Origin: Methylobacterium oryzae
GTDB lineage: Bacteria; Pseudomonadota; Alphaproteobacteria; Rhizobiales; Beijerinckiaceae
Length of the DNA: 64,000 nucleotides
Assembly: GCF_021398735.1 (NCBI RefSeq)
Contig: NZ_CP090349.1
Coordinates: 62,001 to 126,000, forward strand
Reading direction: 5' to 3'
Shown here: piece after piece, positions 9,876 through 60,621 of the stretch
Layout of the letters: the number at the start of each line of letters is the position of its first letter
Position numbering within the stretch: the stretch's first letter is position 1
Position numbers and translations under genes: made by a program
The notes under the pieces: generated by a model
What the model saw: only the letters and a program-made list of their open reading frames with translations
Told to the model about the DNA's origin: nothing
The model's database searches: none

Positions 9876-9892
9876 GAGCCGCGCGTCGCGGT

Positions 9893-43242: not shown

Positions 43243-43626
43243 ATGCCACTCGCCCGGATCGATCTCGCCAAGGGCAAGTCCGCCGAGTACCGCCGAACGA
43301 TTGGCGAGGTCGTCTACGACGCCATGCTCGAAGCCCTGAACGTGCCCAAGGACGACCGCTTCCAGGTCATCAATGAGCACGAGCCGGAGAACTTCGTCAT
43401 CGACCCGAGCTACCTTGGCATCCACCGGACGGGCGACTGCATCGTCATCCAGCTCACCCTCAATGCGGGGCGCGGGGTCGAGCAGAAGCGGAGCTTCTAC
43501 AAGGCGGTGGCGGATGGCCTACACGAGCGCCTGGGTCTGCGCCGCGAGGACGTGTTCATCAGCCTCGTCGAGGTCGCCAAGGAGAACTGGTCCTTCGGCA
43601 ACGGCGAGGCTCAGTACGCGAGTTGA
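43243..43626 (+). CDS. Tautomerase-superfamily protein, paralogue of 55898 gene
   Basis: This 127-residue protein begins MPLARIDLAKGKSAEYRRTI, keeping Pro1. It contains VIDPSYLGI, VIQLTLNAGR and the tail LVEVAKENWSFGNGEAQ. It is closely related along the whole length to the tautomerase at 55898 (IIDPSYLGI, VIVQVFLNAGR, and RDDWSFGNGEAQ). The family is the tautomerase_2 type. The SD AGGGAG lies before the ATG. It is the last gene of the SDR operon. Two similar copies in different contexts suggest duplication or transfer. Confidence 0.88.
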   Translation: MPLARIDLAKGKSAEYRRTIGEVVYDAMLEALNVPKDDRFQVINEHEPENFVIDPSYLGIHRTGDCIVIQLTLNAGRGVEQKRSFYKAVADGLHERLGLRREDVFISLVEVAKENWSFGNGEAQYAS

Positions 43627-44540: not shown

Positions 44541-44585
44541 GGATTCGCCCTGCGTCGGACGTTGGCTCAATCGCCCTGGCACGAT

Positions 44586-44601
44586 ATCAGCATATGCTGA
44601 T
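44586..44601. promoter_or_regulatory. 16-bp palindromic MarR-type operator
   Basis: ATCAGCATATGCTGAT is a perfect palindrome (18 bp with the flanking T/A). It lies centrally between the divergent tautomerase gene (start 44540) and the MarR gene (start 44635), overlapping where promoters are expected. Confidence 0.75.
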
Positions 44602-44634
44602 AATACTGTAAAGCTGTCGCGTCCGGAGCGTGAG

Positions 44635-45063
44635 ATGACGAGTATGACGACGAGCGAGCCTTGCCACTGCAACCTGCTACGCAAGGCAGCCCGGCGGGTC
44701 TCGGCCATCTACGATCAGGAATTGGCGGGCAGCGGATTGCGCATCACGCAGTACGCCCTGTTGGCCGAGATTGAGCGGTCGGGCCCCATCTCGATCACCC
44801 ATCTCGCCGCCATCATGGTTATGGAGCGCAACGGGCTCGGCCACACCTTGCGGCTGTTGGAGAGGGATGGCCTTCTCGTGACCGTCACGGGCAAGGACCG
44901 GCGAAGCCGCACAGTGACTTTGACGGAGCTGGGCCAACGGCGGCTGGCTGACCTACATCATCGCTGGCAACAGGCTCAACGGCGGGTCGAAGCCACGGGC
45001 TTGATGAATGCCATCCGACAGCCGCTCGCATCGTTCGTAGCGCGGGACATCACGGTCTGGTAG
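44635..45063 (+). CDS. MarR-family transcriptional regulator
   Basis: This 142-residue protein has the MarR winged helix: ARRVSAIYDQELAGSGLRIT, ITHLAAIMVMERNGLGHTLRLLERDGL, and the wing VTVTGKDRRSRTVTLTELG. A C-terminal helix (RRVEATGLMNAI) supplies dimer contacts. ATG 44635 follows GGAG. It is divergent from the tautomerase/EamA unit and binds in all likelihood to the palindrome at 44586. MarR proteins typically release DNA upon binding phenolic or other aromatic ligands, which suggests the unit handles aromatic or enol acids. A Cys pair in SEPCHCNLL near the N-terminus may respond to oxidation. Confidence 0.88.
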   Translation: MTSMTTSEPCHCNLLRKAARRVSAIYDQELAGSGLRITQYALLAEIERSGPISITHLAAIMVMERNGLGHTLRLLERDGLLVTVTGKDRRSRTVTLTELGQRRLADLHHRWQQAQRRVEATGLMNAIRQPLASFVARDITVW

Positions 45064-45215
45064 CTCTACGCTGCGTCTGCTGCCGGCGCCTGCGCTTCGA
45101 AAACGGAAATTCGCAAATCCACCCATATGAGTCGCTTGAGCAGGCGGACTGAGGCGGCTGTTGGCCGTAAGCGGAGCGGCCGCTTCGAAGAAGGGCGGCC
45201 AGAAAAGCAGATGGG

Positions 45216-46588
45216 GTGGATGGCTCCCGCTCCGACTGACGGCATCTCGGTGCCAAGATGTGGTCGCTGTCGAAGCAGCAGCCACGCTCATGCAGGAGCC
45301 ATCCCCATGGAGATCACCACCGTCGGCATCGATCTGGCCAAAAGCATCTTTCAGGTTCACGCCGTCGATGCAGCTGGGCACGTCGTCGTTCGGAAGGCGC
45401 TGCGGCGGGCGCAGGTCACGCCGTTCTTCGCCAAGCTGCCACGGTGCCTGATCGGCATGGAGGCGTGCGGCACAGCGCACCACTGGGCCCGGGAACTCAT
45501 AAAGCTCGGCCATGACGTGCGGCTGATGCCGCCGGCTTACGTGAAGCCGTACGTCAAGCGCGGCAAGACCGATGCGAACGATGCCGCTGCCATCTGTGAG
45601 GCGGTGACGCGCCCCAGCATGCGCTTCGTGCCCGTGAAGGCGACCGAGCAGCAGGCGGCGCTGGCGCTGCACCGGACGCGCGACCTGCTGGTCAAGCAAC
45701 GCACGCAGCTGGTGAACATGATCCGAGGCCTGCTCGCCGAGTTTGGGATCGAGATGGCGCGGGGCCTGCGGCACGCGCTCGAACTGGCGGCCCGGCTCTC
45801 GGCCGGAGACGCGGCCGAGGTGCCGCCGTTAGCCCAGCGCGTGGTGACCGGGTTGGCCGATCAGATCGGTGCCTTGCAGATTCAGCTCACCCGACTGGAG
45901 AAGGAGTTGCTCACCTGGCATCGAGACAGCGACCTGTCGCAGCGGCTTGCGACGATCCCGGGTGTCGGCATCGTGTCGGCAACCGCGCTGGCCGCCTCGG
46001 TGAGCGAGCCCGAGCGCTTCCGTTCCGGTCGGCAGTTCGCTGCCTCGTTGGGCCTGACACCGCTGCAGAACTGCAGTGGCGGCAAGGAGCGCCTGGGCCG
46101 GATCTCACGCATGGGCGACCGCTACCTGCGCCGGCTGCTCGTGGTCGGCATGACGTCTCTGATCCGGCGCGCGAAGACGACACCGACCTCGGTCGACCCG
46201 CGGCTGCCGGCGCTGCTGCAGCGTAAGCCAGTGCGCGTGGTGACTGTGGCGGCGGCCAATCGCACGGCGCGGGTCGCCTGGGCGATCATGACCCGCGGCG
46301 GCACCTACCGCGCACCGGCGGCCACGGCCGCCTGACAGCACGTAGAGGAGACGTTTCCAGGTTGCGAGGACGATGAGAGTTGATGGCGAACCGGTCAGAC
46401 CGGGAGCCGGGACACCCCGCCGGCTGTCCAGGGCGTCATAGCCCGCAAAGCAGAGTGGGACCCAGCTCACGGATACCATCAGGGCCAGCAGTCAACATGA
46501 ACGACTGCATCAACAGGCCGGACACAAGACTGCACCCGACCAACGCGTCAGAAGCTCAATTCGCCACTTGCAATGCGGGAGCCATCCA
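45216..46588 (+). mobile_element. IS1111-type insertion sequence (IS110 family)
   Basis: The transposase gene is flanked by perfect 15-bp subterminal inverted repeats: GTGGATGGCTCCCGC at 45216-45230 and its complement GCGGGAGCCATCCAC at 46574-46588. IS1111-group elements have such subterminal repeats and no target duplication. True ends are a few bases outside these repeats, so the element is about 1.4 kb. The non-coding 46336-46573 stretch is the expected site of a guide (bridge) RNA. Confidence 0.85.
45307..46335 (+). CDS. IS110-family (IS1111 group) transposase
   Basis: This 342-residue DEDD transposase carries an N-terminal RuvC-like domain (ITTVGIDLAKSIFQVHAVD, GMEACGTAHHWARELI, KTDANDAAAICEAV), with Asp and Glu at the catalytic places. 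Its C-terminal transposase_20 domain (IPGVGIVSATALAASVSE then FRSGRQFAASLGLTP) contains the essential Ser region. ATG 45307 gives the conserved N-terminus MEITTVG; the upstream extension lies within the IS left end. It appears intact. The element is inserted 3' of the MarR gene and does not disrupt any gene I recognise. Confidence 0.93.
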   Translation: MEITTVGIDLAKSIFQVHAVDAAGHVVVRKALRRAQVTPFFAKLPRCLIGMEACGTAHHWARELIKLGHDVRLMPPAYVKPYVKRGKTDANDAAAICEAVTRPSMRFVPVKATEQQAALALHRTRDLLVKQRTQLVNMIRGLLAEFGIEMARGLRHALELAARLSAGDAAEVPPLAQRVVTGLADQIGALQIQLTRLEKELLTWHRDSDLSQRLATIPGVGIVSATALAASVSEPERFRSGRQFAASLGLTPLQNCSGGKERLGRISRMGDRYLRRLLVVGMTSLIRRAKTTPTSVDPRLPALLQRKPVRVVTVAAANRTARVAWAIMTRGGTYRAPAATAA

Positions 46589-47070: not shown

Positions 47071-49557
47071 TCAGTGTACTTGAACCTGCATGTCCGCCAA
47101 CGGCGCGCGGAACTCAGCGTGCAAGCCCACGGGATCGTAACGGAGGTCGGCGGCGCGCGTTCCCACCAAGCCCATTCGGATCAGCTTCAAGCCGAACCCG
47201 CCGCGCCCGCTCGGCGCGGCCACCACTGGGCCGCCGCTCTCGTTCCAGCCGAGCACGAGGCTAGGCACCTGTCCGTCCTCGGTACGCCACCCGATCCGCA
47301 CGGTCCCGGTCTCGGCCGACAGCGCGCCGTACTTGAGTGCGTTGGTCGCCAACTCGTGCAGGAGCAGCGACAGGGACAGCGCCGCCTGCGGGGAAATGTC
47401 CATGTCCGGCCCGTCGAGCGCGAAGCGGTCGAGGTCGGCCTGCATGCTCAGCACGCTCTCCATCACCGCCCGCATCTTGGCCGCGGTCCAGCTCTTCTGC
47501 ATCAGCACGTCGTGAGCGCGTGAGAGCGCCAGCACCCGGCGCTCAAACGCCTCCACCGGCTCGCGATCAGTGATCCCGCGCAGGGTTTGCGTCGCGATCG
47601 ACTGGACGATGGAGAGGGTGTTCTTCAGCCGGTGAGCCAGCTCCTTGTTGAGCACGCCCTGCAACTCCTCGGCGCGCACCCGCGCCACCCCGACCTCGAC
47701 ACGGTCGGCGACGTTGCGCAGGAAAGCCAACTCCTCGACGGTCCACCGCCGTGCCTGCACGTCGTGGACGATAAACACTGCCACGGTGCGCCCTCGCTCG
47801 CGCACCGGCATGTGGACGAAGGCGTTGATGTCAAGGTTCTGCCAGATCGCGGCATCATCGCGGGTGCGAGGATCCTCGGCCACGTCGTCCACGATCAGCG
47901 GCTCGCCGCGCCGCAGGTGCTCGCGGATGTCACCGTAGTCGTCGTAGCGATGCCGCCCGGCGACGCTGGCGTGGCCGGGCGCCGTCCAATCCGGTTCGAT
48001 GTTGATGAACTCGACGTCGCCCTCGACACGCCCGAAGCCAGCGCGCGTCGCCCCCAGCGTGCGGCCAACGATCTCGGCGGCCGCGTGCGTCATCTCGGTG
48101 GTCGTACTCAGATCGCGCAGGCGGTCGCCCAGGGCCAGCAGCGCGAGGCGGCGAGCGTCTGCCTCGACGCGGCCGGTCACCTCCAAGAAGATCAGCCCGA
48201 AGCGGTCGGCGTCGATCCGGAACGCCCGCCCCTCGTACCAGCGCCCCAAGGCACCGACTTGACGGGTGAAGCCATGCACCACGCCGGTCTCGACCACTTC
48301 GGCGAACTCGCTGATCCACGCCTCCTCAATGGTGGGGATCAACTCGCGGACCGTGCGGCCGACTGCTTGCGTGGGGTCGAAGCCAACCAGTTCGCCCCAA
48401 GCGGGATTGACCTCGATGTAACGCCAGTCGTGGACCTGTCCCGTGGCATCCCGCACCATCTCGCCGATCACGAACCCCTCGCTGAGGCGGTCGAACATTT
48501 CGCGCCAGTAGGCGTCCTTCGCGCGGACTTCGGCGCGAGCGGCTGCTTCGGTCAGCCCAGCCGTAGCCACACCGGCGAATAGGCCGAGCAAGGCGAGATC
48601 CGCCTCGCCGAAGGCAAATGGGTGGGCAGCCTGGAGCTTGAGCACGCCCAGCACCTGACCGAGGCGCGCGATCGGTGCGTGAACCGCCGACCCAAGGCCG
48701 ATGCGTGCCGCCAGCACAGCATTGACACGCGGGTCGGTGCGGGCGTCCGTGAGCAGGATCGAAGCGTTGGTCTTTGCGCAGGCGCCTGAGGTGCTGCCGT
48801 CGAGCCGCACTCGGATCCCTTGATGGGCGGCGAGGCTGCCGCGTACGGCGCTATACTCCAAGGCATCGCCGTCGATCAGTTCGACCACGCCGCCTTCGGC
48901 CGCCGGCATCGCCCGCATGGCCCCGGCCACCACGGCGTGCATGATCGCGGTCAAATCGCCCTCCGCAGCAGCGATGCCCGCATGCGTGTCACGCAGCGCT
49001 TCGCGTGCACGATAGGCTTCGGCTTCGGCGCTCCTCAGTGCATCGCGCGAGGTTAGCGCACGGCGCAGTTCGAGCTGGCTCATCACCTGCTCGGCCAGCA
49101 GTCGCAGGCCGTTCTGCTGTGCGTCGGTCAGCCCGCCGGGGCGGGGCACCTTGTCGATGACGCACAGGCTGCCGAGCACCAAGTTGCTGGCTGTGCGTAG
49201 CGGTGCGCCAGCATAGAACCGGATGAACGGCTCTCCGATCACCAGGGGATTGTTCGCCGTGCGCGGATCCCGCGTCAGGTCCGGGATGATTAGCATCTCG
49301 TCCGGCTGGGCCAGCGCGTGGGCGCACACCGAGCGGTCGAGGTCCGTCTCGCACGGGGGAAAGCCAATCCGCGCCTTGAACCATTGGCGGTCCCCAGAGA
49401 CCAAGCTGACGAGCGCTACCGGCACATCACAAAGCTGACAGGCGAGCTGCACGATGCCGTCGAAACCCGGCTCTGCCGGGGTATCGAGGATCGCGTAGCC
49501 TTCCAGCGCATCCAAGCGCGCTGGGTCGTGGACGGCGGGTGAGGGAGGATACGGCAT
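47071..49557 (-). CDS. HWE-family sensor histidine kinase with GAF-GAF-PAS-GAF input
   Basis: This 828-residue soluble kinase has successive sensory domains. The first GAF-like domain (about 10-160) is followed by a second GAF (about 200-330), a PAS domain (about 345-450, VNPAWGELVGFDP), and a third GAF (about 465-610). The HWE kinase domain follows, with HisKA_2 type His in LNKELAHRLKNTLSIVQSIA and N box HELATNALKYGAL. The WxE signature is in LVLGWNESGGPVV and GGFGLKLI is the G box. No membrane helix, so it senses a cytoplasmic signal. It is upstream of its receiver protein by 2 bp. Confidence 0.9.
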   Translation of the reverse strand: MPYPPSPAVHDPARLDALEGYAILDTPAEPGFDGIVQLACQLCDVPVALVSLVSGDRQWFKARIGFPPCETDLDRSVCAHALAQPDEMLIIPDLTRDPRTANNPLVIGEPFIRFYAGAPLRTASNLVLGSLCVIDKVPRPGGLTDAQQNGLRLLAEQVMSQLELRRALTSRDALRSAEAEAYRAREALRDTHAGIAAAEGDLTAIMHAVVAGAMRAMPAAEGGVVELIDGDALEYSAVRGSLAAHQGIRVRLDGSTSGACAKTNASILLTDARTDPRVNAVLAARIGLGSAVHAPIARLGQVLGVLKLQAAHPFAFGEADLALLGLFAGVATAGLTEAAARAEVRAKDAYWREMFDRLSEGFVIGEMVRDATGQVHDWRYIEVNPAWGELVGFDPTQAVGRTVRELIPTIEEAWISEFAEVVETGVVHGFTRQVGALGRWYEGRAFRIDADRFGLIFLEVTGRVEADARRLALLALGDRLRDLSTTTEMTHAAAEIVGRTLGATRAGFGRVEGDVEFINIEPDWTAPGHASVAGRHRYDDYGDIREHLRRGEPLIVDDVAEDPRTRDDAAIWQNLDINAFVHMPVRERGRTVAVFIVHDVQARRWTVEELAFLRNVADRVEVGVARVRAEELQGVLNKELAHRLKNTLSIVQSIATQTLRGITDREPVEAFERRVLALSRAHDVLMQKSWTAAKMRAVMESVLSMQADLDRFALDGPDMDISPQAALSLSLLLHELATNALKYGALSAETGTVRIGWRTEDGQVPSLVLGWNESGGPVVAAPSGRGGFGLKLIRMGLVGTRAADLRYDPVGLHAEFRAPLADMQVQVH

Positions 49558-50138: not shown

Positions 50139-51413
50139 TTAATTCGGCTGCTGACTTAAGCGATTGAGTGTCATCTTAGGAACAATCAGACCAGCGCCCA
50201 TCGCTATCACGACCAGGCCGGCCGTCGCGATGTTGCCCAGAAGGTCGACGAGCATCGAGGGAGGTGCTGCTGATCCGAGGCCGGTGAGGGCGACGGCGTC
50301 GGACGCCGCCTGGAACATGAAGACGCCGGGGACGAGGGACACGACGCAGGCGAAGGCGCATGCGCCGAACGGCAGCTTGCGGCGGTCTGACAGCGGAGTG
50401 ATGAGGCTCCCGACCAGCAGACACGCCGCGAGGGCGCCGAGCGGCACGCTCGCACCCGCGGCGAGCGACGCCCAGCGCACTGCATGCGCCACCATCCCGA
50501 CGCCGATCAGGATTGGGAGTGCGCGCCAGGGCATATTGAAGAACGACCCGTAGGCCGCGACCGCGACGCCGGCCGACACAACGTCGAGAACCAGCGGGAC
50601 TGCGCGCGTCGGCCCTGCGGTGGGAAAGGACGTACCGGTCAAGGCGAGGCCGATCAGGAGGCCGGCGCAGATCGCGAGGACGACGAGCGCGGCGAAGGCG
50701 AGCCGGGACAGGCCGATCGGGAGGCGCCCGCGCACGAGATCGATTGCGCCGTTCAGGAAGTGCGGCCCGGGCACCAGCACCATGCAGGGGCACGCGGCAA
50801 CGAGGCGATGCACGACACCGAGATCGAGCAGCATGGCCGCCCCCGCGCACGCGCCGCTCAGAAGCGCGGCCGAGAACGGCTGCAGGAACGGGTTGCCGCT
50901 TAGATGCGACAGGGCCCGCCGCAGGCACGCCCCGGCACCCGCGATCAGGGTGATCAGACCGAGCGTGGCGACGTCCTTCGCGCCGAACACCACGCCCAGA
51001 GCGGCTGCACCCGCCGCGGCCATGATGGCGAACCGGAGCAGCGAGACCGGGGACCGTCCGGGGACGGCCAGAAGCGCGCTCTGCGCGTCGCTCACGGCCA
51101 TCCGTCCCCCACATACGGCATCGACGATCGTCTCCGCGGCGATGACCCGGCCGATATCGACCCCGAAGGGTTCGGTGAACGCGCCTTGGGCGCTCCGACA
51201 GCCATCGAGCTGGATCGTCGTGACGCCCCACGCGACCGATACCTGCACGTCGTGACCGAACTTGCGGCCGAGACGGATGAGCGCGAGACGCGTGCCTTCA
51301 CTGGTCTGGCCGTTCGCCAGGAGGATCGTCGCGACCTCCGCGAGGAGCGCGTGCACGGCATCGGCGCTGGGGCCGGGGCTGGTCAGGCAGGCTTTCGCGG
51401 CGTCGGGTGTCAC
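50139..51413 (-). CDS. Threonine/serine exporter (ThrE) family protein
   Basis: This 424-residue fused ThrE-type protein has a cytoplasmic N-terminal domain (LLAEVATILLANGQTSEGTR and KFGHDVQVSVAWGVTTIQ; about 20-120), followed by about ten membrane helices. Proteins of this family export Thr/Ser or small carboxylates. GTG 51413 is the start, 4 bp from the cydB stop, so it is co-translated with cydAB. That pairing with a bd-type oxidase is uncommon. It may export a metabolite, for example an organic acid, made under the condition in which the oxidase is used. Substrate is not determined. Confidence 0.8.
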   Translation of the reverse strand: MTPDAAKACLTSPGPSADAVHALLAEVATILLANGQTSEGTRLALIRLGRKFGHDVQVSVAWGVTTIQLDGCRSAQGAFTEPFGVDIGRVIAAETIVDAVCGGRMAVSDAQSALLAVPGRSPVSLLRFAIMAAAGAAALGVVFGAKDVATLGLITLIAGAGACLRRALSHLSGNPFLQPFSAALLSGACAGAAMLLDLGVVHRLVAACPCMVLVPGPHFLNGAIDLVRGRLPIGLSRLAFAALVVLAICAGLLIGLALTGTSFPTAGPTRAVPLVLDVVSAGVAVAAYGSFFNMPWRALPILIGVGMVAHAVRWASLAAGASVPLGALAACLLVGSLITPLSDRRKLPFGACAFACVVSLVPGVFMFQAASDAVALTGLGSAAPPSMLVDLLGNIATAGLVVIAMGAGLIVPKMTLNRLSQQPN

Positions 51414-51416
51414 GGC

Positions 51417-52403
51417 TCAGTCGTACCCTTCCGTCACCGCCACCTTGCCCTTGAAGACGCGATAGACGACCAGGGTGTAGACCAGGGTGATCGGCAGGAC
51501 CACGACGCCCGCCCCCCAGAACATGAAGGACAGGCTCGCCTCCGGCGCCGCCGCCTCGGTCACCGTCACGCTGAACGGCACCATGTAGGGCAGGAACGAG
51601 GCGGCGAGCGTCGCGAAGGCGGCGGCGAAGATCAGCGCCACCAACGGGAAAGGCAGCGCGTCGATCCGGCGCCGCGCCGCGTAGAGGAGGCCGGCGCAGG
51701 CCGCGGCGCCCACGAGCGGCAGGACCAGCATCTCGGGCCGCTCGAGCCAGCGGTGCAGCACCCGCAGGTTCATCGCCAGCGCGTACGCGAAGGCCGCGCC
51801 GAGGAAGACCAGCACCCCGAGCAGGAGGCGCGGTAGCAGCCGGAAGCCGAGGTCGCGCACATCGGACTCGGTCTTACCGCACAGCCACGCGGCGCCGAGC
51901 AGCGCGTAGCCGAGGCACAGGCCGAGCCCGCAGAGCAGCGAGAAGGGCGTGAGCCACGTGAACGCCCCGCCGGCGTAGAGCCCGTCGCGGACCGGCAGCT
52001 CCTGCACCAGCGCCCCGACCGTCACGCCCTGCACGAAGGCCGCGCAGTAGGAGCCGCCGACTAAGCCCGCGTCCCAGACCCGCCGCAGCCGCCGGGACTT
52101 GTAGCGGAACTCGAAGGCGACGCCGCGCAGGATCAGGGCCGCGAGCATCAGGAGGAGCGGCAGGTAGAAGGCCGAGAGCAGCAGCGCGTAGACCGTCGGG
52201 AAGGCGCCGAACAGGATCGTGGCGGCGAGCACCAGCCAGGTCTCGTTGCCGTCCCAGACGGGGGCGATCGCCTGCATCATGTGCCGGCGCGCGGTCTCGT
52301 CCGGGGCGATCCCGAACAGCATGCCGACGCCGAGGTCGAACCCGTCGAGCAGCACGTAGAGCATCAGGGTGAGGGCGAGGGCGGCGGCCCAGAACGCGAT
52401 CAT
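51417..52403 (-). CDS. cydB: Cytochrome bd-type (cyanide-insensitive) ubiquinol oxidase subunit II
   Basis: This 328-residue subunit II of a bd-type quinol oxidase has eight to nine membrane helices. It starts MIAFWAAALALTLMLYVLLDG, with the conserved FDLGVGMLFG block, followed by DGNETWLVLAATILFGAFP. These are the CydB/CioB signatures. It is downstream of cydA by 6 bp and upstream of the ThrE-like gene by 3 bp, all in one transcription unit. It works with CydA in the inner membrane to reduce oxygen to water using quinol. Confidence 0.95.
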   Translation of the reverse strand: MIAFWAAALALTLMLYVLLDGFDLGVGMLFGIAPDETARRHMMQAIAPVWDGNETWLVLAATILFGAFPTVYALLLSAFYLPLLLMLAALILRGVAFEFRYKSRRLRRVWDAGLVGGSYCAAFVQGVTVGALVQELPVRDGLYAGGAFTWLTPFSLLCGLGLCLGYALLGAAWLCGKTESDVRDLGFRLLPRLLLGVLVFLGAAFAYALAMNLRVLHRWLERPEMLVLPLVGAAACAGLLYAARRRIDALPFPLVALIFAAAFATLAASFLPYMVPFSVTVTEAAAPEASLSFMFWGAGVVVLPITLVYTLVVYRVFKGKVAVTEGYD

Positions 52404-52409
52404 GGCCGC

Positions 52410-53822
52410 TCACTCCGCCGGTGTGCCGCTGGGGGCGCCGGGACTGCTGCCCGGCACCGCCAGAGGTCGTTTCGGATTGGCGGCGCCGCCGGCATGGGCC
52501 GGGGTCGGCAGGATGCCGGCCTTGAGCATGCGGTAGATGTAGACGGTGCCGGCCGCGAAGATCAGCGCGTAGACCGCGCCGAACACGGCGAGGGAGGTCG
52601 CCACCTGCGGGGAGGTCAGGAACGGGGTCGCCGCGTCGGCGGTGCGCAGCTGGCCGTAGACCGTCCAGGGCTGGCGCCCGACCTCGGCGGTGAACCACCC
52701 GGTCAGCGTCGCGACGAAGCCCAGGGGGAACGACAGGAAGATCGCCCATTGCAGCCAGCGCGCCCGCTCCAGCCGCCCGGTGGCGTAGAAGGCCATCCCG
52801 CCCCAGGCCAGGGCCAGCATCAGCAGCCCGCAGCCGACCATGATCCGGAAGGCGAAGAACGGGATCAGCACCGGCGGCCGGTCGGCCTTGGGGATGTCCT
52901 TGATGCCGATCACCTTGCCGGTGAGGGTGCCGTCGTCGATCAGGCTGCCGATCGGGGCGGGCAGCGCGATGACGAAGTGGTTCTTCTCCTGCGCCTCGTC
53001 GGGCCAGGCGAACAGGATCTCGCCGGCCGGCGCCCGGCTCTCCCAGTGGCCCTCGATCGCGGCGATCTTCGAGGGCTGGTGCTTGACGACGTAGTCGCCG
53101 GTGAGGTGGCCGAAGAAGAGCTGCAGCGGCACCAGGATCGCGGCGAGGCCGAGCCCCATCCGGACCATGGCGCGGGCCTCGGCGCGGTCCCGGTTCCGCA
53201 GCATCGACCACGCCCCCGTCGCGGCCACGCAGAAGCTGGTGGTGACGTAGGCGGCCAGGACCATGTGAGGAAAGCGGACCCAGACGACGGCGTTGAAGAT
53301 GATCGCCCACCAATCGGTCGGCACGAACACGCCGTCCGGCCGCAGGGCGAAGCCGGTGGGGTACTGCATCCACGAGTTGTTCACGAGGATCCAGAACGAC
53401 GACAGGCTGGTGCCGAGGCAGACCATCAGGCAGGCGAACAGGTAGAACCAGCGCGGCACCCGCCTGCGGCCGAACATCAGCACCCCGAAGAACGAGGCCT
53501 CGAGCGCGAAGGCCGTGAAGCTCTCGTAGCCGAGGAGCGGCCCCTGGATCGGGCCGGTGCGGCGGGCGAGCTCGCTCCAGTTCGTGCCGAACTGGAAAGC
53601 CATGACGATGCCGGAGACGACGCCGAGGCCGAAGGCGACGGCGAAGATCTTGAGCCAGAAGTCGAACAGGCGGTCGTAGACCGGCTCGCCCGAGATCATC
53701 GCCCGCGCCTGGAGGAAGGCGAGCCAGGCCGCCAGCCCGACCGTGAAGGCCGGGAAGATGATGTGGAACGAGATCGTGAAGGCGAACTGGATGCGCGAGA
53801 GCATCAGGGCGGAGAGGTCCAT
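52410..53822 (-). CDS. cydA: Cytochrome bd-type (cyanide-insensitive) ubiquinol oxidase subunit I
   Basis: This 470-residue subunit I holds the hemes and quinol site. The heme ligand His is at about 20 (FTISFHIIFPAFT); another His is in VVWVRFPHMVLAAY. The Q-loop between helices 6 and 7 (around GHLTGDYVVKHQPSKIAAIE) is short, the mark of the CIO-type, low-cyanide-sensitivity branch. GWFTAEVGRQPW is the conserved later motif. I use ATG 53822 with GAGG upstream; the TTG before it is unlikely. Spaced 6 bp from cydB. The upstream 107 bp has no FNR box I can recognise. Confidence 0.95.
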   Translation of the reverse strand: MDLSALMLSRIQFAFTISFHIIFPAFTVGLAAWLAFLQARAMISGEPVYDRLFDFWLKIFAVAFGLGVVSGIVMAFQFGTNWSELARRTGPIQGPLLGYESFTAFALEASFFGVLMFGRRRVPRWFYLFACLMVCLGTSLSSFWILVNNSWMQYPTGFALRPDGVFVPTDWWAIIFNAVVWVRFPHMVLAAYVTTSFCVAATGAWSMLRNRDRAEARAMVRMGLGLAAILVPLQLFFGHLTGDYVVKHQPSKIAAIEGHWESRAPAGEILFAWPDEAQEKNHFVIALPAPIGSLIDDGTLTGKVIGIKDIPKADRPPVLIPFFAFRIMVGCGLLMLALAWGGMAFYATGRLERARWLQWAIFLSFPLGFVATLTGWFTAEVGRQPWTVYGQLRTADAATPFLTSPQVATSLAVFGAVYALIFAAGTVYIYRMLKAGILPTPAHAGGAANPKRPLAVPGSSPGAPSGTPAE

Positions 53823-53929
53823 CAATCCTCGCTTCGAGGCATCGGCGTACGTTCCGCAGCCCGGGGCTGCGTGCGGTGGTTATTGGGATGAGCGGAGAGG
53901 CGGCGGGGGAACCGCGCCTCGCGAACCTG

Positions 53930-55441
53930 TCAGATGTTCTCGATTCTCAAGATCGGCGCGGTCTCGGCCCGGCTGCGCCGGCAGGCCTCGGCGTCCCGCT
54001 TGAGGTCGATGCCGTAGGTCGGGATCACGGCCTTGAGGCGGGGCAGCCAGCCGTCCGGCGTCAGCCGGTCGGCGAAGCACTTCTCCAGCACCTCGACCGC
54101 GATGTAGGCCGCCGTCGAGGCGCCGGGCGAGGCGCCGAGCAGCGCGCAGATTGAGTTGTCCGCCGCGGCCACCAGCTCGGTGCCGAATTCCAGGTCGCCT
54201 TCCTCCAGCGGGTTCGACCGGCCGGTCGGCTTGATCGTCTGCACCCGCTGGCCGGCGACCGCCAACGTCCAGTCCTGCTTCAGCGCCTTGGGAAAGAACT
54301 GCTTCAGGGTCGCGAACTGGTGGTCGGAACTCTGGAGCACCTGGCCCACGAGGTACTCGGTGAGCGCGACATTGTCCTTGGCGACGTCGAGCAGCGGCAC
54401 GACGTTGTGCGGCGTCAGCGCGGTGAACAGGTCGGTGAGCGACCCGTGCTTGAGGAAGCGCGACGAGAAGCCCGCGTAGGGCCCGAACAGCAGCGAGCGC
54501 TTGCCGCCGATGATGCGGGTGTCGAGGTGGGGGACCGACATCGGCGGCGAGCCGGAGGCGGCCTTGCCGTAGACCTTGGCGTGGTGGCGCGCGCTGACCG
54601 CGTCGACGTCGCAGCGCAGCCAGATCCCCGAGACCGGGAAGCCGCCGTAGCCGCGCCCCTCGGGGATCTTCGAGGCCTGCAGCAGCGGCAGCGAGCCGCC
54701 GCCCGCGCCGATGAACACGAACTTGGCCGTCACGGTGCGGCGCGTGCCGTCGTAGGTGTCCTCGACGGTCACGGCCCAGCGGCCGTCGTCGACCCGGTCC
54801 AGGGCGACGACCTTGCGGTTGTAGTGGACGGCGAAGCCGGGCTGCGCCGCGAGCTGCTTCACCAGCAGGTGCGTCAGGGCGCCGTAATCGACGTCCGTCC
54901 CGGTGACGATCCGGGTGGCGGCGATCGGCTCGCCGGGATCGCGGCCCTCGATGATCAGCGGCGCCCAGCCGGCGATGACCTGCGGGTCCTCGCTGTACTC
55001 CATGCCGTGGTAGCAGTGGTGGGCCGACATCGCGGCGTAGCGCGCCTTGAGGAAGGCGACGTTCTCGGCCCCCCAGACGAAGCTCATGTGCGGGCAGGGA
55101 TGGATGAAGGCGCGCGGATCCGGGATCGCGCCCTTCCGCACGAGGTGCGCCCAGAGCTGGCGCGAGATGTCGAACTCGGTGTTGACCTCGAGCGCCTTGG
55201 CGATGTCGACGCTGCCGTCGGAGCGCTGGGGTGTGTAGTTCAGCTCGCAATTGGCGGCATGGCCGGTGCCGGCGTTGTTCCAGCCCTCCGAGCTCTCCTG
55301 CGCGCAGTCGTGCAGCGTCTCGAACATCGCGATCCTGAGCGACGGCTCCAGCTCCTTCAGCATCGTGCCGAAGGTCGCGCTCATGATCCCGGCGCCGATC
55401 AGCACCACGTCGGGAGCGTCGTCGAAGCTCATCTCGGCCAT
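53930..55441 (-). CDS. mqo: Malate:quinone oxidoreductase
   Basis: This 503-residue FAD enzyme oxidises malate to oxaloacetate and passes electrons directly to quinone at the membrane. The N-terminus carries VVLIGAGIMSATFGTMLKEL, then NNAGTGHAANCELNYTP. Further are FVFIGAGGGSLPLLQASKIP and FLKHGSLTDLF, and SPGASTAAYIAVEVLE at the C-terminus. ATG 55441 has GAGGAGGGG upstream. Neighbours: cydAB downstream (same strand), cupin, tautomerase and poxB upstream. Here it provides electrons for the quinol oxidase. Confidence 0.95.
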   Translation of the reverse strand: MAEMSFDDAPDVVLIGAGIMSATFGTMLKELEPSLRIAMFETLHDCAQESSEGWNNAGTGHAANCELNYTPQRSDGSVDIAKALEVNTEFDISRQLWAHLVRKGAIPDPRAFIHPCPHMSFVWGAENVAFLKARYAAMSAHHCYHGMEYSEDPQVIAGWAPLIIEGRDPGEPIAATRIVTGTDVDYGALTHLLVKQLAAQPGFAVHYNRKVVALDRVDDGRWAVTVEDTYDGTRRTVTAKFVFIGAGGGSLPLLQASKIPEGRGYGGFPVSGIWLRCDVDAVSARHHAKVYGKAASGSPPMSVPHLDTRIIGGKRSLLFGPYAGFSSRFLKHGSLTDLFTALTPHNVVPLLDVAKDNVALTEYLVGQVLQSSDHQFATLKQFFPKALKQDWTLAVAGQRVQTIKPTGRSNPLEEGDLEFGTELVAAADNSICALLGASPGASTAAYIAVEVLEKCFADRLTPDGWLPRLKAVIPTYGIDLKRDAEACRRSRAETAPILRIENI

Positions 55442-55452
55442 CGGGCCCCTCC

Positions 55453-55851
55453 TCAGGCGGTCTTGTTCGGGACGAAGGGGAGCTGGGCCTCGGCGCCGGG
55501 GGCGAGGATCACGTAGGCCCGGCACCAGGGCTCGTCGTCGACGAGGCGCCAGGAATGGCCGGAGCCGGCCGTGTCCTCGGCGATGAGGATGTCGCCGGGG
55601 CGGATCGTGAAGTGCGCGCCGGCCCTCGTCTGGAAGTCGAGGGTGCCGCGCAGGGTGATGACGAACTGCCGGGTCGGCGCCGCGTGCCACGCGTAGGTGC
55701 CGCCGGGCTGCGTTTCCCGGAAGGAGATCGAGACCACGTCGGTCGTGCCGCTGAGGATGTCGCCGCGCTCGCCGTGGGGCAGGTCGATAGCGCCTTCCTC
55801 GAAGTAGGAATTGTCGTCGTCACCGGTCCAGATGCGAACGCAGCGGATCAT
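55453..55851 (-). CDS. Small cupin-domain protein
   Basis: This 132-residue single-domain cupin has strands with the metal-binding-like pattern: SISFRETQPGGTYAWHAAPT (a His and Thr in place of H-x-H), RQFVITLRGTLDFQTRAG and ITIAED-like IRPGDILIAEDTAGSGHSW. The family binds small molecules or metal ions. It lies 11 bp before mqo in the same operon. Start ATG 55851 has GGAGG upstream. Function unknown; it may be a small-molecule sensor or enzyme attached to the respiratory unit. Confidence 0.75.
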   Translation of the reverse strand: MIRCVRIWTGDDDNSYFEEGAIDLPHGERGDILSGTTDVVSISFRETQPGGTYAWHAAPTRQFVITLRGTLDFQTRAGAHFTIRPGDILIAEDTAGSGHSWRLVDDEPWCRAYVILAPGAEAQLPFVPNKTA

Positions 55852-55897
55852 CGGGATGGCCTCCAGGTTCGAGAAGCGGGGATCAGGGGCGTGAACA

Positions 55898-56278
55898 TCA
55901 GGCGAGTTGCGCCTCGCCGTTGCCGAAGGACCAGTCGTCGCGCTGCACCTCGACCAGGCTGACGAGGACGTCCTCCCGGCGCATCCCGACTCGCTCGTGC
56001 AGCGCATCGGCGAGGGTTCTGAAGAACAGGCGCTTCTTCGGCGCGTCGCGGCCCGCATTGAGGAAGACTTGGACGATGACCGCCTCTGAGCTGCGCACGA
56101 TGCCGAGGTAGGACGGATCGATGATCAGCCCCGCAGGCGGGTGCTCGGTGACGATCTGGAAGCGCTCCGCCATCGGAACGCCGAGGGCCGCGTGAAGCGC
56201 TTGCTGGACGGTATCGGCGACGTCACGGCCATAGGCTGCGGGCTTGCCGGCCGGGATCTCAATGCGGGCGAGCGGCAT
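55898..56278 (-). CDS. Tautomerase-superfamily protein, paralogue of 43243 gene
   Basis: This 126-residue protein starts MPLARIEIPAGKPAAYGRDV when ATG 56278 is chosen, two codons inside the open frame, so Pro1 is preserved; the TTG before it would hide it. Blocks: LIIDPSYLGIVRS, VQVFLNAGRD, LHERVGMRREDVLVSLVEVQ and WSFGNGEAQ. It is related along its entire length to the tautomerase at 43243. It lies between poxB (8 bp) and the cupin (46 bp), so it is part of the respiratory cluster, an unusual place for a tautomerase. Confidence 0.88.
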   Translation of the reverse strand: MPLARIEIPAGKPAAYGRDVADTVQQALHAALGVPMAERFQIVTEHPPAGLIIDPSYLGIVRSSEAVIVQVFLNAGRDAPKKRLFFRTLADALHERVGMRREDVLVSLVEVQRDDWSFGNGEAQLA

Positions 56279-56285
56279 AGCCAAA

Positions 56286-58013
56286 TCACCGCCAGAGATT
56301 GGTCTTGGCGAGATCGATGATCTCGGTGCCGCGCCCGTCGATCACCGCCTTAGCAAGCCAAAGCCCGAAACCCATCGCCTGCTCGACGCCGATCTTCGGC
56401 GGCATCGCCAGCTCCTGGCGGGCCGAGACGACGTCGAGCAGCGCCGGCCCGTCATGGGCGAGCATCTCGGCCAGCGCACCGGGTAACTCGGCCGGGTCCT
56501 CGACGCGCTGGGCATGGATCCCGGCCCCGCGGGCCATGGCGGCGAAGTCCGGGTTCATCAACGCCACGCCAGTGTCGAGGAAGCCCGCGGCCTTCATCTC
56601 CATCTCGACGAAGCCCAGCGTGCCGTTGTTCAGCACCACGATCTTCACCGGCAGCTTGTGCTGGTTGAGGGTCAGCAGGTCGCCCATCAGCATGGCGAAG
56701 CCGCCATCGCCGGAGAACGAGATGATCTGCCGCCCGGGATAGGCCGCCTGCGCGCCGATCGCCTGCGGCAGGGCGTTGGCCATCGAGCCGTGGTTCAGCG
56801 AGCCGATCAGCCGGCGCTTGCCGTTCATGGCGAGGTAGCGCGCCGCCCAGATCGTCGGCGTGCCGACGTCGAAGGTGAAGACCGCGTCCTCGGCGGCCGC
56901 CTCGCTGAGCGTCCGGGCGACGTATTGCGGGTGGATCTTGCCGCCGGGCTTGCCCACCGCGAGCGCGTCGAGCCCGGCGCGGGCCTTGCGGTAATGGGCG
57001 AGGCTGTCGTCGAGATGCGCCCGGTCGGTCTTGCTCTGCAGCCGCGGCAGCAGCGCCGTAATGGTCGCGCCGACATCGCCGATCAGGCCGAGATCGATCC
57101 GGCAGTGGCGCCCGAGGCTCTCGGCCCGCAGGTCGACCTGCGCGACCTTCGCGTCCTCCGGGTAGAACTGGCGGTAGGGGAAGCCGGTGCCGAGCAGCAG
57201 CAGGGTGTCGCAGTCGAGCATCGCCCGGTAGCCCGACGAGAAGCCGATCAGGCCGGTCATGCCGACGTCGTAGGGATTGTCCCACTCGACGTGCTCCTTG
57301 CCGCCGAGCGCGTGGACGACAGGGGCCTTCAGCGCCTCGGCGAGTTGCAGCAGCTCCGCGTGGGCGCCGGCGCATCCGCGGCCGCAGAACAGGGTCAAGC
57401 GTCCGGCTCCGTTAAGCATCCCGGCGAGTGCGTCGAGGTCGGCGTCGTGCGGTCGCACCACGGCCGGGGCTGGCGCGAGGGCCGCCGATAGTTCGGGCGC
57501 GTCGCTCGGCATGGCCATGAGGCCGACATCGCCGGGGATCACCACGACGGCGACCCCGCGCTCGGCGATGGCGACGCGGATCGCGGTCTCGATCACGCCG
57601 GGCAGCTGGGCCGGCGAGGAGACCAACTCGCAGTAGTGGCTGCATTCCTGGAACAGGTTCTGCGGATGCGTCTCCTGAAAGTAGCCCCGGCCGATCTCCG
57701 CGGAGGGGATCTGGGCCGCGATGGCCAGCACGGGCACGCGGGAGCGGTGCGCGTCGAACAGGCCGTTGATCAGGTGCAGGTTGCCGGGCCCGCAGGAGCC
57801 GGCGCAGACGGCGAGCGCGCCGGTCAGGTGCGCCTCGGCGCCGGCCGCGAAGGCGGCGCTCTCCTCGTGGCGCGTGTGGATCCAGGCGATCGAGCCGTCC
57901 TGGCGCAGGGCCTCGGTGAGGCCGTTCAGACTGTCCCCGACGACCCCGTAGATCCGATTCACGCCGGCCTGGGCCAGCGCCTGGACCATCAGGTCCGCCA
58001 CCTTCTTCGCCAC
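56286..58013 (-). CDS. poxB: Pyruvate:quinone oxidoreductase (thiamine diphosphate dependent)
   Basis: This 575-residue ThDP-dependent peripheral membrane enzyme oxidises pyruvate to acetate and CO2 and reduces quinone. The catalytic Glu is in [15 protein letters not shown] near the N-terminus. The FAD-binding part (about 190-340) contains [13 protein letters not shown] and [10 protein letters not shown]. The ThDP motif [17 protein letters not shown] and NNGTLGF fits the GDG...NN signature. The start is GTG 58013 with GAGGAGG upstream. It stands 8 bp before the tautomerase gene. Typical length is 572-575 residues. Confidence 0.93.
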
Positions 58014-58055
58014 GCTTTTCGCCTCCTCTTCAGACCGCCTCGGCTTCGTTCCGGA

Positions 58056-58307
58056 TCACTTCGGGCTGCAGCCGATGCAGATGCTGTCGTCGATCCGGTC
58101 CATCGCGCGTTCGTCGCGCGTGGGCTTGTCGGGATGTTCGGTTGCTGTGGGGCTGTCGGCGCGGTCAGGCGGCATCGTCGTGCCAGTCGCCGTCGTATTC
58201 GGGGCCGTCTGGGTGGAGAGGGGCCCACCCCCGGTCCCGGTCTGGTCGACCTGCGCTTGAGCGTGGGCAGCGGTCAGGAGGAGTGCGGCTGTCAGTATGG
58301 TGCGCAT
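58056..58307 (-). CDS. Small exported protein, unknown function
   Basis: This 83-residue protein has a Sec signal peptide (MRTILTAALLLTAAHAQA). The mature part is short, polar and Thr/Pro/Asp-rich (TGTGGGPLSTQTAPNTTATG, DRADSPTATEHPDK), and ends DDSICIGCSPK with a Cys pair CIGC. That CxxC end could bind metal or form a disulfide. GAGGGT lies before ATG 58307. It sits between fumC and poxB on the same strand. No family recognised. Confidence 0.55.
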   Translation of the reverse strand: MRTILTAALLLTAAHAQAQVDQTGTGGGPLSTQTAPNTTATGTTMPPDRADSPTATEHPDKPTRDERAMDRIDDSICIGCSPK

Positions 58308-58356
58308 AGTAGACCCTCATGGAATCTGAGGAGTTGATGACCGGCGTCGGGTGCTC

Positions 58357-59820
58357 CTAGGCCCCGGCCAGCCCGTGGCCGATCATGGTCCTGGGATCGC
58401 AGACCGCGTCGAAGCGCTCGGCCGGGACGCCCTCGGCCAGGGCGGCCTCGCGCAGGGTCGTGCCCTCGTCGTTGGCGCGGTGGGCGATCTTCGAGGCGAG
58501 GTCGTAGCCGATCACCGGCGACAGGGCCGTGACCAGCATCAGCGACTGGTTCACCGTCTCGTCGATCCGCGTCCGGTTGAGTTCCGTGCCCGCGACCGAG
58601 TAGGTCCGGAACTTCTCGCAGGCGTCGCCCAGCACGCGGATGGCGTGCAGCGTGTTGTTGATGATGATCGGGCGCATCGCGTTGAGCTCGAAGTTGCCCT
58701 GCGCGCCCGCGAAGGCGACCGCGTTGTCCTCGCCGATTACCTGGATGCAGACCATCACCAGGGCCTCGCACTGGGTCGGGTTGACCTTGCCGGGCATGAT
58801 CGAGGAGCCCGGCTCGTTGGCGGGCAGCAGCAACTCGCCGAGGCCGCAGCGCGGACCCGAGGCGAGCCAGCGCATGTCGTTGGCGATCTTCATCAGCGCG
58901 ACCGCGAGCCCGCGCACCGCCGCCATGGCGGCGACCATGGCGTCCAGCGACCCCTGCGCGGCGAACTTGTTGGGCGCCGTGACGAACGGCTTGCCGGTGA
59001 GATCGGCGATCTTGGCGGCGATCTCCGCGCTGAAGCCCTTCGGGGCGTTGAGGCCGGTGCCGACCGCGGTGCCGCCGGCCGCCAACTCGTACAGCCCGGC
59101 GCGCGACGCCTCGACGAGGGCCAGCGCGTCGCGCATCTGTGCCACGTAGCCCGACCATTCCTGGCCGACGGTAAGCGGGGTCGCGTCCTGCAGGTGGGTC
59201 CGGCCGGTCTTGACCACGTCCATCCAGGCCTGGGCCTTGGCGTCGATCGCGTCGGCCAGCGCCCGCGCCTTGGGGAGCAGGACCTCGTCGAGTTCGAGCA
59301 CCGTGGCGATGTGCATCGCGGTCGGGAAGGTGTCGTTCGACGACTGGCCCATGTTGACGTGGTCGTTCGGGTGAACCGGGCTCTTGGAGCCGAGCGCACC
59401 GCCGAGGAGCTGGATCGCGCGGTTCGACAGCACCTCGTTGACGTTCATGTTGGACTGGGTGCCGGAGCCGGTCTGCCAGACGTAGAGCGGATAGTGCGCG
59501 TCGAGCTTGCCCGCGATCGTCTCGTCGGCGGCCTGGACGATGGCCTGCGCGCGCCAATCCTCCAGGCGGCCGGCGGCCGCGTTGACCAGGGCGGCGGCCT
59601 TCTTGACGTAGCCGTAGGCGTGGTAGACCCGTTTGGGCATGCGATCGTCGCCGATCGAGAAGTGCTGGAGCGAGCGCTGCGTCTGCGCGCCCCAGTAGCG
59701 GTCCGCCGGCACGTCGATCCCGCCCATCGAATCCGTCTCACGCCGCATCCCCGTGGCGGAGATGCCGATAGTTCGTTCCGGTTGCTTCGTGGGCCTCGGT
59801 CGATGCTCGTCCAACGGCAC
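58357..59820 (-). CDS. fumC: Fumarate hydratase, class II
   Basis: This 487-residue FumC hydrates fumarate to malate. The characteristic motifs are [36 protein letters not shown], and the signature [18 protein letters not shown]-terminal domain ends GHGLAGA. The conserved start in other FumC proteins lies at [20 protein letters not shown] (ATG 59748), but the ribosome site GGAG favours GTG 59820, which adds 24 residues; both are possible. It heads the respiratory cluster and supplies malate to Mqo. Confidence 0.94.
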
Positions 59821-60000: not shown

Positions 60001-60411
60001 CTAATGGGTCCTTAGGTCTGCCAACGAGACCTGATGGCCGAACATGCCCCAGTTCTTCTCCGCGACCTCATGGATGACGACATAGATCGGCGGGGGACCT
60101 TCCCCCATGTTCCCATACCTCGCGATGATCTCGGTCGCCTTAAAGATCATCTTGCCGCGTGCGCTGTCGTCTAGGCCCCCGGTCAGCGCGTAGATGACGA
60201 GGGCCACGATCGATGCCGACGTCGCCTTCCCCCCAACAAAGACGCTGTCATCCCCTTGGTCGACGAAGAACGTCCAAATTCCGTTTCGAACGCCATCAGC
60301 CGGCGAGAGGCGCTCGCACGAAATTGCCAGTTCGGTCAGCTCGGCCGCGACGCGCGACCGGGCGGCCAAGGGTATCGCGTGGGGCGAGGCGTGTATGAAC
60401 ATTTTCGGCAT
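60001..60411 (-). CDS. Tautomerase-superfamily protein (136 aa), Pro1 conserved
   Basis: With ATG 60411 the protein begins MPKMFIHASPHAIPLAARSR, preserving Pro1; the frame extends to 60423 (four extra residues) but that would bury it. Blocks are GIWTFFVDQGDDSVFVGGKA, VALVIYALTGGLDDSARGKM and PPPIYVVIHEVAEKNWGMFG, fitting a tautomerase fold. It lies between fumC (180 bp) and the dehydrogenase genes. It is distant from the other four tautomerases. Substrate unknown. Confidence 0.75.
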   Translation of the reverse strand: MPKMFIHASPHAIPLAARSRVAAELTELAISCERLSPADGVRNGIWTFFVDQGDDSVFVGGKATSASIVALVIYALTGGLDDSARGKMIFKATEIIARYGNMGEGPPPIYVVIHEVAEKNWGMFGHQVSLADLRTH

Positions 60412-60621
60412 GGCGAAACTCATTTCCGTTCAAACTTACGAAGCAGTTGGCTCTGTCCACGACCGCTATCGATGTCGGTTCGGCCCCAAGCGCGTGGTCA
60501 CCGAAAGGATGTCGGCATCCTCGACCTATCGTCCGGGGATACGGCCACGCGCTCCGCCGCTGCCAGATCTCCCGGGGCGCTCCTCGCCCGCGAATTCCAT
60601 TTCGATCGACCGGTGGTGGCG

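Follow-up and report, generated by a model that had tools for sequence, protein, structure and literature searches.

A Methylobacterium gene cluster that may encode a quinone-linked respiratory route from fumarate to acetate with its own bd-type oxidase

Do the genes next to a bd-type oxidase in Methylobacterium oryzae encode one short respiratory chain, or do they merely lie side by side? The window analysed here (64,000 nucleotides in its full length) carries nine neighbouring genes on the minus strand, which code for a fumarase, a small protein, PoxB, a tautomerase, a cupin, Mqo, CydA, CydB and a ThrE-type exporter (Table 1). The seven genes from fumC to cydB, which the initial annotation had placed on one strand, are all present as open frames between 59748 and 51417, and profile searches agree with their names. 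That annotation had missed the ThrE gene, the 83-aa ORF and a duplicate copy of the module. The identities and the arrangement of the genes are established, as are the second copy and the recurrence of the genes in other genomes.

Table 1. Genes of the cluster, with positions in the window.
Gene	Positions	Strand	Basis
fumC, class II fumarase	58357..59748	-	TIGR00979
small ORF, 83 aa	58056..58307	-	translation
poxB, ubiquinone-dependent pyruvate dehydrogenase	56286..58013	-	NF006591, alignment to 3ey9
tautomerase-superfamily protein, nearest malonate semialdehyde decarboxylase	55898..56278	-	PF14552, 3mjz match
cupin	55453..55851	-	predicted structure, alignment, position 5' of mqo
mqo, malate:quinone oxidoreductase	53930..55441	-	TIGR01320, NF003608
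cydA/cioA, bd oxidase subunit I	52410..53825	-	PF01654, 6rko alignment
cydB/cioB, bd oxidase subunit II	51417..52403	-	PF02322, TIGR00203
ThrE-type exporter, both halves in one chain	50139..51413	-	PF06738, PF12821

By profile, the redox enzymes of the cluster belong to quinone-linked families, as had been proposed. Mqo exceeded the cut-offs of TIGR01320 (666.4 bits, cut-off 549.95) and NF003608 (912 bits, cut-off 733), and its start was placed at 55441. The exception model NF040844, for quinone-dependent lactate dehydrogenase, was not reached (543 of 915). PoxB scored 988 bits against NF006591 (cut-off 792). Its residue 573 is the last one aligned to E. coli PoxB (3ey9), where it pairs with residue 570 of a chain of 572, so the membrane-binding C-terminal end is present. 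FumC passed TIGR00979 with 685 bits (cut-off 664.75). In the longer ORF, which starts at 59820, the match to this profile sets in only at residue 25, and the ATG at 59748 is the more likely start. The same genome holds a 97% identical copy of fumC (C1:888285-889706) and a 56% identical relative elsewhere. Both oxidase subunits were recognized clearly (CydA, PF01654, 507 bits, cut-off 26; CydB, PF02322, 286 bits, cut-off 36, and TIGR00203, 161 bits, cut-off 117); cydA starts with the TTG at 53825 or perhaps the ATG at 53822. Residues 311 and 312 of CydA align to residues 310 and 376 of E. coli bd-I subunit 1 (6rko), with about 65 Q-loop residues absent. Judged by this alignment, CydA is of the CIO type, with a short Q-loop that lacks the long extension.

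The tautomerase scored 96 bits against PF14552 (cut-off 28) and matched the malonate semialdehyde decarboxylase (MSAD) of FG41, 3mjz, with an E value of 8e-21. The two proteins have in common their length, a DWSFG stretch and the proline after the start methionine, which the window protein reads from the ATG at 56278. However, Asp37, which has a catalytic role in MSAD and is Asp in 3mjz and 2aag, is replaced by Glu in the window protein, as it is in three of four aligned relatives. Our guess is that the tautomerase is a candidate oxaloacetate decarboxylase/tautomerase; its solved relatives being malonate semialdehyde decarboxylases, the Asp37 exchange and the lack of a tautomerase gene in the second module copy argue against this. 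The cupin stays below the Pfam cut-off (25.5 bits, cut-off 27.2), whereas its predicted structure is a confident cupin fold (pLDDT 92.4). His56 is invariant, and in all 27 aligned members no histidine follows two residues on, as it would in HxH, the metal motif of cupin hydroxynitrile lyases. This incomplete motif and a score of 23 bits against NF049940 (cut-off 140) argue against an assignment as (R)-mandelonitrile lyase. Foldseek placed the Mn-dependent hydroxynitrile lyase 4bif at rank 39, among generic cupins.

The ThrE gene lies 3 bp after cydB, and both halves of its product were found (PF06738, 106.7 bits, cut-off 26.3; PF12821, 51.9 bits, cut-off 27). Four of the 16 other mqo loci contain a relative with 28-57% identity, and ThrE is a candidate C4-dicarboxylate transporter. 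The small ORF after fumC has an N-terminus that, judged by eye, resembles a signal peptide; in the fetched loci, tblastn at E<=1 matched it only in two slices of the same place (L085, L090).

Gaps between the genes measure 3-104 bp, a spacing compatible with a single transcription unit. A search of the minus strand found no sigma-70-like promoter, and two overlapping terminator-like sites inside cydA score below the shuffled mean. The second module copy in the same genome shows 93.7-97.7% identity per gene and lacks the small ORF and ThrE as well as the tautomerase. It is this other copy that is syntenic with genome G359, while that of the window occupies a different location. An IS110 element is found 3.8 kb from the window cluster. 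This Mqo subtype occurs in 6 of 119 genomes of the family (>75% identity) and, at E<=1e-190, in 4 of 397 genomes drawn from the order and 2 of 289 drawn from the class.

We compared 17 loci with this Mqo subtype, six found through the cupin and the other 11 either through Mqo or because they are copies in this genome. Each of the 17 has the cupin gene immediately upstream of mqo; fumC is nearby in 13, full poxB in seven, cydAB in six, ThrE in five and the tautomerase in three, in varying orders. The 11 loci not found through the cupin contain the cupin 11 times, fumC eight times, poxB four times and cydAB three times. A fixed clustering, as originally suggested, was not borne out because both content and order vary, with cydAB absent from 11 of 17 loci, full poxB from ten and the tautomerase from 14. 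On the other hand, the co-occurrence check recommended at the time turned out in favour of the cluster: as the genes recur together across genomes in different orders, random co-location is unlikely. The probabilities of chance proximity at the 17 loci (about 2e-22 for fumC, 2e-7 for cydA and 4e-11 for poxB, with 5-Mb genomes, three fumC, four cydA and two poxB copies and a 20-kb stretch) overstate the significance, since copy numbers were assumed and the loci are not independent, the window copy, the second copy and that of G359 being near-identical. Three Mqo loci that do not belong to the subtype were fetched with 19-20 kb each, and in none of the three does this stretch contain a further gene of the module. 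Pairwise identities of Mqo, in pairs that are not independent, are followed by those of CydA (Spearman 0.91, n=6), CydB (0.80, n=6), PoxB (0.78, n=7) and FumC (0.50, n=11), weakly by those of the cupin (0.27, n=17) and not by those of ThrE (-0.01, n=5).

The pairing of poxB with the oxidase extends beyond mqo loci. Nine of 11 family loci with CydA at >=64% identity have poxB in the cluster, five of them mqo loci already counted; the other four (G125, G076, G079 and G038) carry poxB with cydAB but without mqo, and in two of these PoxB is only about 44% identical. At 55-60% CydA identity, none of five fetched family loci has poxB adjacent. Plasmids carry further versions: an ADC-family gene, poxB, a tautomerase, cydA and cydB in Aminobacter; an FAD oxidoreductase, poxB, cydA, cydB and an AEC transporter in R. 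leguminosarum; the same genes plus malic enzyme in R. ruizarguesonis TP15; and cydAB, lactate genes, malic enzyme and fumC in Bradyrhizobium Ash2021. The plasmid malic enzymes exceed the NF010052 cut-off and, as they convert malate to pyruvate, take the place that Mqo plus a decarboxylase would have here. The same CydA type is also found with other partners, namely SDR and GH15 genes (G354, G013), efflux genes in two plasmids, and FdhD and FdhF/YdeP in one plasmid. That the same genes are reshuffled or partly swapped elsewhere suggests a joint function.

On balance we lean slightly towards reading the nine genes as one operon for a self-contained chain of organic-acid respiration that skips NADH. 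ThrE would move a C4-dicarboxylate, FumC would convert fumarate to malate, and Mqo would oxidize malate to oxaloacetate while reducing quinone. Oxaloacetate may then be decarboxylated to pyruvate and CO2 by the MSAD-like tautomerase or, where its gene is absent, spontaneously or by a housekeeping enzyme; this carbon route joining Mqo to PoxB had been left out of the initial proposal. PoxB would turn pyruvate into acetate and CO2 and reduce a second quinone, and the CIO-type CydAB would re-oxidize both quinols with oxygen. The net reaction, by our own bookkeeping, would be fumaric acid and O2 to acetic acid and two CO2, with no NADH. We know of no iron-sulfur enzyme among these families. The cupin might serve Mqo or its substrate or product, and the whole could be an exchangeable accessory set of genes for conditions in which acids abound, oxygen is low or respiration is inhibited. 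A single bypass free of NADH dehydrogenase, as first proposed, fits the window version; the R. ruizarguesonis counterpart has malic enzyme and a protein barely above the Pfam NDH2_C cut-off. A broader idea, which we hold tentatively and with some doubt, is that of a portable fumarate/malate-to-acetate pathway with its own terminal oxidase that evolved in at least three ways (Mqo with a tautomerase-type oxaloacetate decarboxylase, malic enzyme with an NDH-2-like enzyme, and malic enzyme with lactate dehydrogenase genes), the cupin being a constant partner of one Mqo subfamily.

The cluster might instead serve tolerance of cyanide or NO, with the CIO sustaining respiration, Mqo supplying electrons and oxaloacetate that traps cyanide as cyanohydrin, FumC and PoxB replacing inhibited metal-dependent enzymes and the cupin perhaps handling cyanohydrins. 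A 2011 paper reportedly dealt with Mqo, aconitase and fumarase isoenzymes under cyanide. In strain CECT 5344, according to PMC11049912 and PMC12294151, Mqo is coupled to a cyanide-insensitive oxidase, and cyanide reacts with the oxaloacetate that Mqo forms. The CIO type of CydA agrees with such a role, as does (R)-mandelonitrile lyase being the sole NCBIfam match of the cupin; yet the low score of that match, the second histidine missing in 27 of 27 members and the rank of 4bif speak against it. The CECT 5344 system is accompanied by nitrilase genes (nitC, or nit4 in the cio cluster); among the subset of neighbours scanned with Pfam no nitrilase or cyanase was seen. Transporter genes and malic-enzyme versions would be left unexplained. 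We regard this explanation as unlikely.

Still less likely is a guard against organic acids. It would draw on the consumption of one proton per fumarate dianion, by our own reckoning, on cupin and mqo remnants near oxalate decarboxylase and a formate/nitrite transporter in Agrobacterium plasmids, and on cydAB beside FdhF/YdeP in Bosea (CydA 43% identity) and Bradyrhizobium 184 (63%), YdeP being linked to acid resistance. These neighbours belong to other genomes, however, the oxidase of Bosea falls outside this close type, and the window's cluster contained no recognizable acid-response gene. An opportunistic island of independent central-metabolism genes, sharing only horizontal transfer, would suit the patchy distribution of the Mqo subtype, the second place of the window copy and the nearby IS110; we consider it improbable, as these partners come together in more than one order and with replacements that are only distantly related.

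If the organic-acid chain is real, bacteria would package a complete short respiratory chain, from substrate transport and the carbon route through a pair of quinone-linked dehydrogenases to an oxidase, in a form that they can acquire, lose and reassemble as a whole. Respiratory modularity would then have a clear example. An unnamed cupin and a tautomerase of the MSAD type would receive a function, and it would become directly testable whether CIO-type bd oxidases own dedicated dehydrogenases or draw on the general quinol pool.

Parts of this scheme have counterparts in known systems. E. coli PoxB is of the same family as window PoxB, which is full length including the C-terminal end. To our knowledge, E. 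coli poxB is not beside a bd oxidase, unlike poxB in the window, R. leguminosarum, R. ruizarguesonis and Aminobacter (one gene apart). The PF06738 and PF12821 halves of ThrE are those of YjjP and YjjB. YjjPB is a succinate transporter of E. coli (PMC7236211). Window ThrE combines both halves in one chain and reaches only 40 bits against the exporter model PRK09917 (cut-off 249). CIO-type bd oxidases of Proteobacteria (PMC5322542) have a catalytic subunit that lacks the Q-loop extension, as in window CydA. Passages of that paper describe clusters of the cydABDC and ythABC types; its main text contains the words mqo, malate and pyruvate 0 times. Our literature searches found neither this gene layout nor the cupin-Mqo pair. 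That Mqo feeds a CIO-type oxidase is already known in Pseudomonas: in P. pseudoalcaligenes/oleovorans CECT 5344, according to PMC11049912, Mqo passes on malate electrons that a CIO-type bd oxidase uses with oxygen, the same pairing as proposed here. By that account, its mqo genes (BN5_0860, BN5_1358) lie apart from cioA3B3 (BN5_1902-1903), which share their cluster with amino-acid genes, maeB and nit4, whereas the window has mqo, fumC, poxB, the cupin gene and cydAB side by side.

The window covers positions 62001-126000 of contig C1 (G000), and the host, judged from the cupin and from an IS110 element, is probably a Methylobacterium. Gene identities in the module of the 6.65-Mb host genome (five contigs) were assigned with curated profiles, and all genes listed in the initial annotation, from fumC to cydB, were correct. 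The gene set is richer than was stated there, as the small ORF and the last gene, encoding a ThrE-type exporter, had been overlooked. Downstream of the module lies the gene of an HWE histidine kinase, which is a possible regulator. The region also carries an IS110-family element with 94-96% identity to Methylobacterium plasmid copies.

Coordinates of the module and of related features (window positions unless stated otherwise)
Feature	Position	Strand	Remark
fumC	start 59748	-	49 bp to next gene
small ORF		-	42 bp to next gene
poxB		-	7 bp to next gene
tautomerase		-	46 bp to next gene
cupin		-	11 bp to next gene
mqo		-	104 bp to next gene
cydA		-	6 bp to next gene
cydB		-	3 bp to next gene
ThrE		-	last gene
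HWE histidine kinase	47071-49557	-	GAF and PAS domains
IS110-family transposase	45127-46335	+	element about 45.2-46.6 kb
tautomerase superfamily	43243-43626	+	54% identical to module tautomerase
tautomerase superfamily	44094-44708	-	Tautomerase_3
tautomerase superfamily	60001-60423	-	
second copy	about C1:882000-889700		same contig, contig positions
G013 remnant	9429-10249		positions in fetched locus L128
Agrobacterium plasmid remnants	9001-9758		positions in fetched loci L074 and L077

Gene neighbourhoods were compared at 17 loci with this Mqo subtype, namely the window, a second copy in the same genome, 14 further genomes and one Proteus mirabilis record (Mqo 67% identity). The cupin gene was immediately upstream of mqo in all 17. 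Six of these loci (G359, G386, G133, G193, G1338 and G1348) had been found with the cupin probe and are no test of the pairing; when they were excluded, the cupin was upstream in 11/11 loci found with Mqo. Nearby fumC was present in 13 of the 17 loci (G193, at a contig end, and G513 hold partial genes; the G1051 gene is on the opposite strand), full-length poxB in seven (the G082 gene is on the opposite strand, and the G103 remnant was left out of this count), cydAB in six, ThrE in five (28-57% identity outside the window) and the tautomerase in three. Gene orders vary as well, for instance fumC-cupin-mqo-ThrE-poxB-cydA-cydB in G386 and poxB-tautomerase-cupin-mqo-cydA-cydB-fumC-ThrE in G133. 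Three control loci with an Mqo outside the subtype (49-53% identity) contained none of the other module genes in the 19-20 kb fetched. The neighbour analysis leaves out 194 plasmid records with Mqo matches below 60%, and the chance estimates for co-location assume copy numbers and ignore shared descent. The cluster had initially been read as a fixed, NADH-independent and quinone-linked respiratory bypass. That reading is right in outline, but instead of fixed the module is better described as a variable chain that, judging from sequence and gene context, would lead from organic acids to acetate.

The Mqo subtype of the window is rare. With the window genome counted each time, identities above 75% were found in 6/119 family genomes and any Mqo match at 1e-30 in 7/119, while matches with E<=1e-190 occurred in 4/397 genomes of the order draw and 2/289 of the class draw. 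The cupin was detected in 25/397 family and 12/388 phylum genomes. All 25 family loci were fetched, and mqo was beside the cupin in ten. In 12 of the 25, a more divergent cupin (identity of 55% or less) adjoins a family-3 solute-binding-protein-like gene, assigned by clustering with Pfam checked for 3/12, and no mqo was near the cupin in these loci (L048-L059). A cut-short cupin, tautomerase and poxB fragment in G013 are apparently a decaying module; in G351 the contig ends just past the cupin, and the cupin locus of G095 is without mqo. Among the phylum genomes, mqo was beside the cupin in 5/5 with a cupin identity of at least 53%, and in none of the four loci fetched from the seven with lower identity. 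On two Agrobacterium plasmids, a cupin gene with a broken reading frame and a truncated mqo match adjoin oxalate decarboxylase and formate/nitrite transporter genes.

CydA of the bd oxidase, which is of the cyanide-insensitive oxidase (CIO) type, had matches at E<=1e-150 in 20/387 family genomes (21 loci). Twelve loci were at least 64% identical, of which 11 were inspected (G129, at a contig end, was left out), and poxB was in the same cluster in nine. Five of these nine are mqo loci counted before; the clusters of G125, G076, G079 and G038 are without mqo. In G354 and G013 (L117, L121), close-type CIO genes are flanked on one side by an SDR gene and on the other by that of a GH15/trehalase-like hydrolase in place of poxB, which is another recurring partnership. 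At 55-60% CydA identity, no adjacent poxB was seen in the five loci fetched out of nine (G231, G282, G184, G154 and G197), and G282 has a 35% relative 4.4 kb away. Of 296 matching plasmid records, 14 had a CydA of 60-80% identity, and neighbours were read for seven, whose gene tables are incomplete. poxB adjoins cydA on plasmids of R. leguminosarum and R. ruizarguesonis TP15 and is one gene away on an Aminobacter plasmid. On the Bradyrhizobium Ash2021 plasmid cydA lies with lactate genes, malic enzyme and fumC, on the Bradyrhizobium 184 plasmid with FdhD and FdhF/YdeP, and on those of Sinorhizobium B11 and R. ruizarguesonis TP23 with efflux genes.

Counterpart clusters bear on the carbon route. 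In TP15, a run of malic enzyme, FAD protein, poxB, cydA, cydB and AEC transporter genes was found, with fumC 4.0 kb beyond malic enzyme; the FAD protein is NDH-2-like (NDH2_C 27.9 bits against a cut-off of 27.7; no NCBIfam cut-off passed). In Bradyrhizobium Ash2021 one strand carries, in succession, the gene of an AEC transporter, two other genes, cydA and cydB, three genes for lactate utilisation, and then malic enzyme and fumC. One of the three lactate proteins is similar to the product of the gene that follows cydB in G038, as the two share their best NCBIfam matches, though below the cut-off. Malic enzyme converts malate to pyruvate. This step corresponds to the gap between Mqo, yielding oxaloacetate, and PoxB, using pyruvate, and we therefore propose that in the window oxaloacetate from Mqo would be decarboxylated to pyruvate, feeding PoxB. 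Because malic enzyme fills this gap in the counterparts, the tautomerase encoded between poxB and the cupin, of the malonate semialdehyde decarboxylase type, is a candidate for the decarboxylation. The Aminobacter poxB, flanked by an acetoacetate-decarboxylase-family gene and another tautomerase, points toward decarboxylation too, without proving it. Since the tautomerase is absent from 14/17 loci, decarboxylation must often occur otherwise; oxaloacetate also decarboxylates spontaneously. Three further tautomerase-superfamily genes lie near the module within one 17-kb stretch.

The second copy in the genome, fumC-poxB-cupin-mqo-cydA-cydB, is 93.7-97.7% identical to the window copy at the DNA level, gene by gene. 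It is without the small ORF, and neither tautomerase nor ThrE was detected (tblastn, E<=1e-8). Its surroundings match the congeneric genome G359 over at least about 14 kb; the match of the window copy to that place is confined to the module itself. For five of the six genes, identity between the two copies exceeds that between the second copy and G359 by 0.2-3.6 points, with poxB as the exception (93.7% between the copies versus 95.7% between second copy and G359). The window copy may thus have arisen either by duplication or by transfer from a near relative. The genome contains four cydA, three mqo, five fumC-like matches (one partial, two at most 39% identical) and, besides the two close poxB copies, four poxB relatives of at most 31% identity; most module functions therefore have copies elsewhere.

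The cupin is the least understood part of the module. It is 93% identical to a Methylobacterium sp. OAE515 protein, and its predicted structure is confident (pLDDT 92.4), with generic cupins as fold neighbours. Among 27 aligned sequences the invariant residues include H56, P59, D93 and H99; no His occurs two residues past H56, and either Gln or Arg occupies position 62. Cupin identities track Mqo identities only weakly (Spearman 0.27), a result compatible both with an obligate partner and with an accessory under loose constraint. As it is constant beside this Mqo, the cupin is perhaps the most informative part to test.

Judged from titles and passages, the literature searched held no recognisable description of the module cluster or of the cupin-Mqo pair. 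In Pseudomonas pseudoalcaligenes/oleovorans CECT 5344, Mqo is reported to be coupled to the cyanide-insensitive oxidase, and the oxaloacetate that it forms to react with cyanide (PMC11049912, PMC12294151). In a survey of bd oxidases the CIO is defined by a missing Q-loop extension (PMC5322542), and E. coli yjjPB has been called a succinate transporter (PMC7236211). For Asaia bogorensis, a PoxB-like primary dehydrogenase has been described as part of an operon (PMC4596401), in passages that do not mention an oxidase among its genes.
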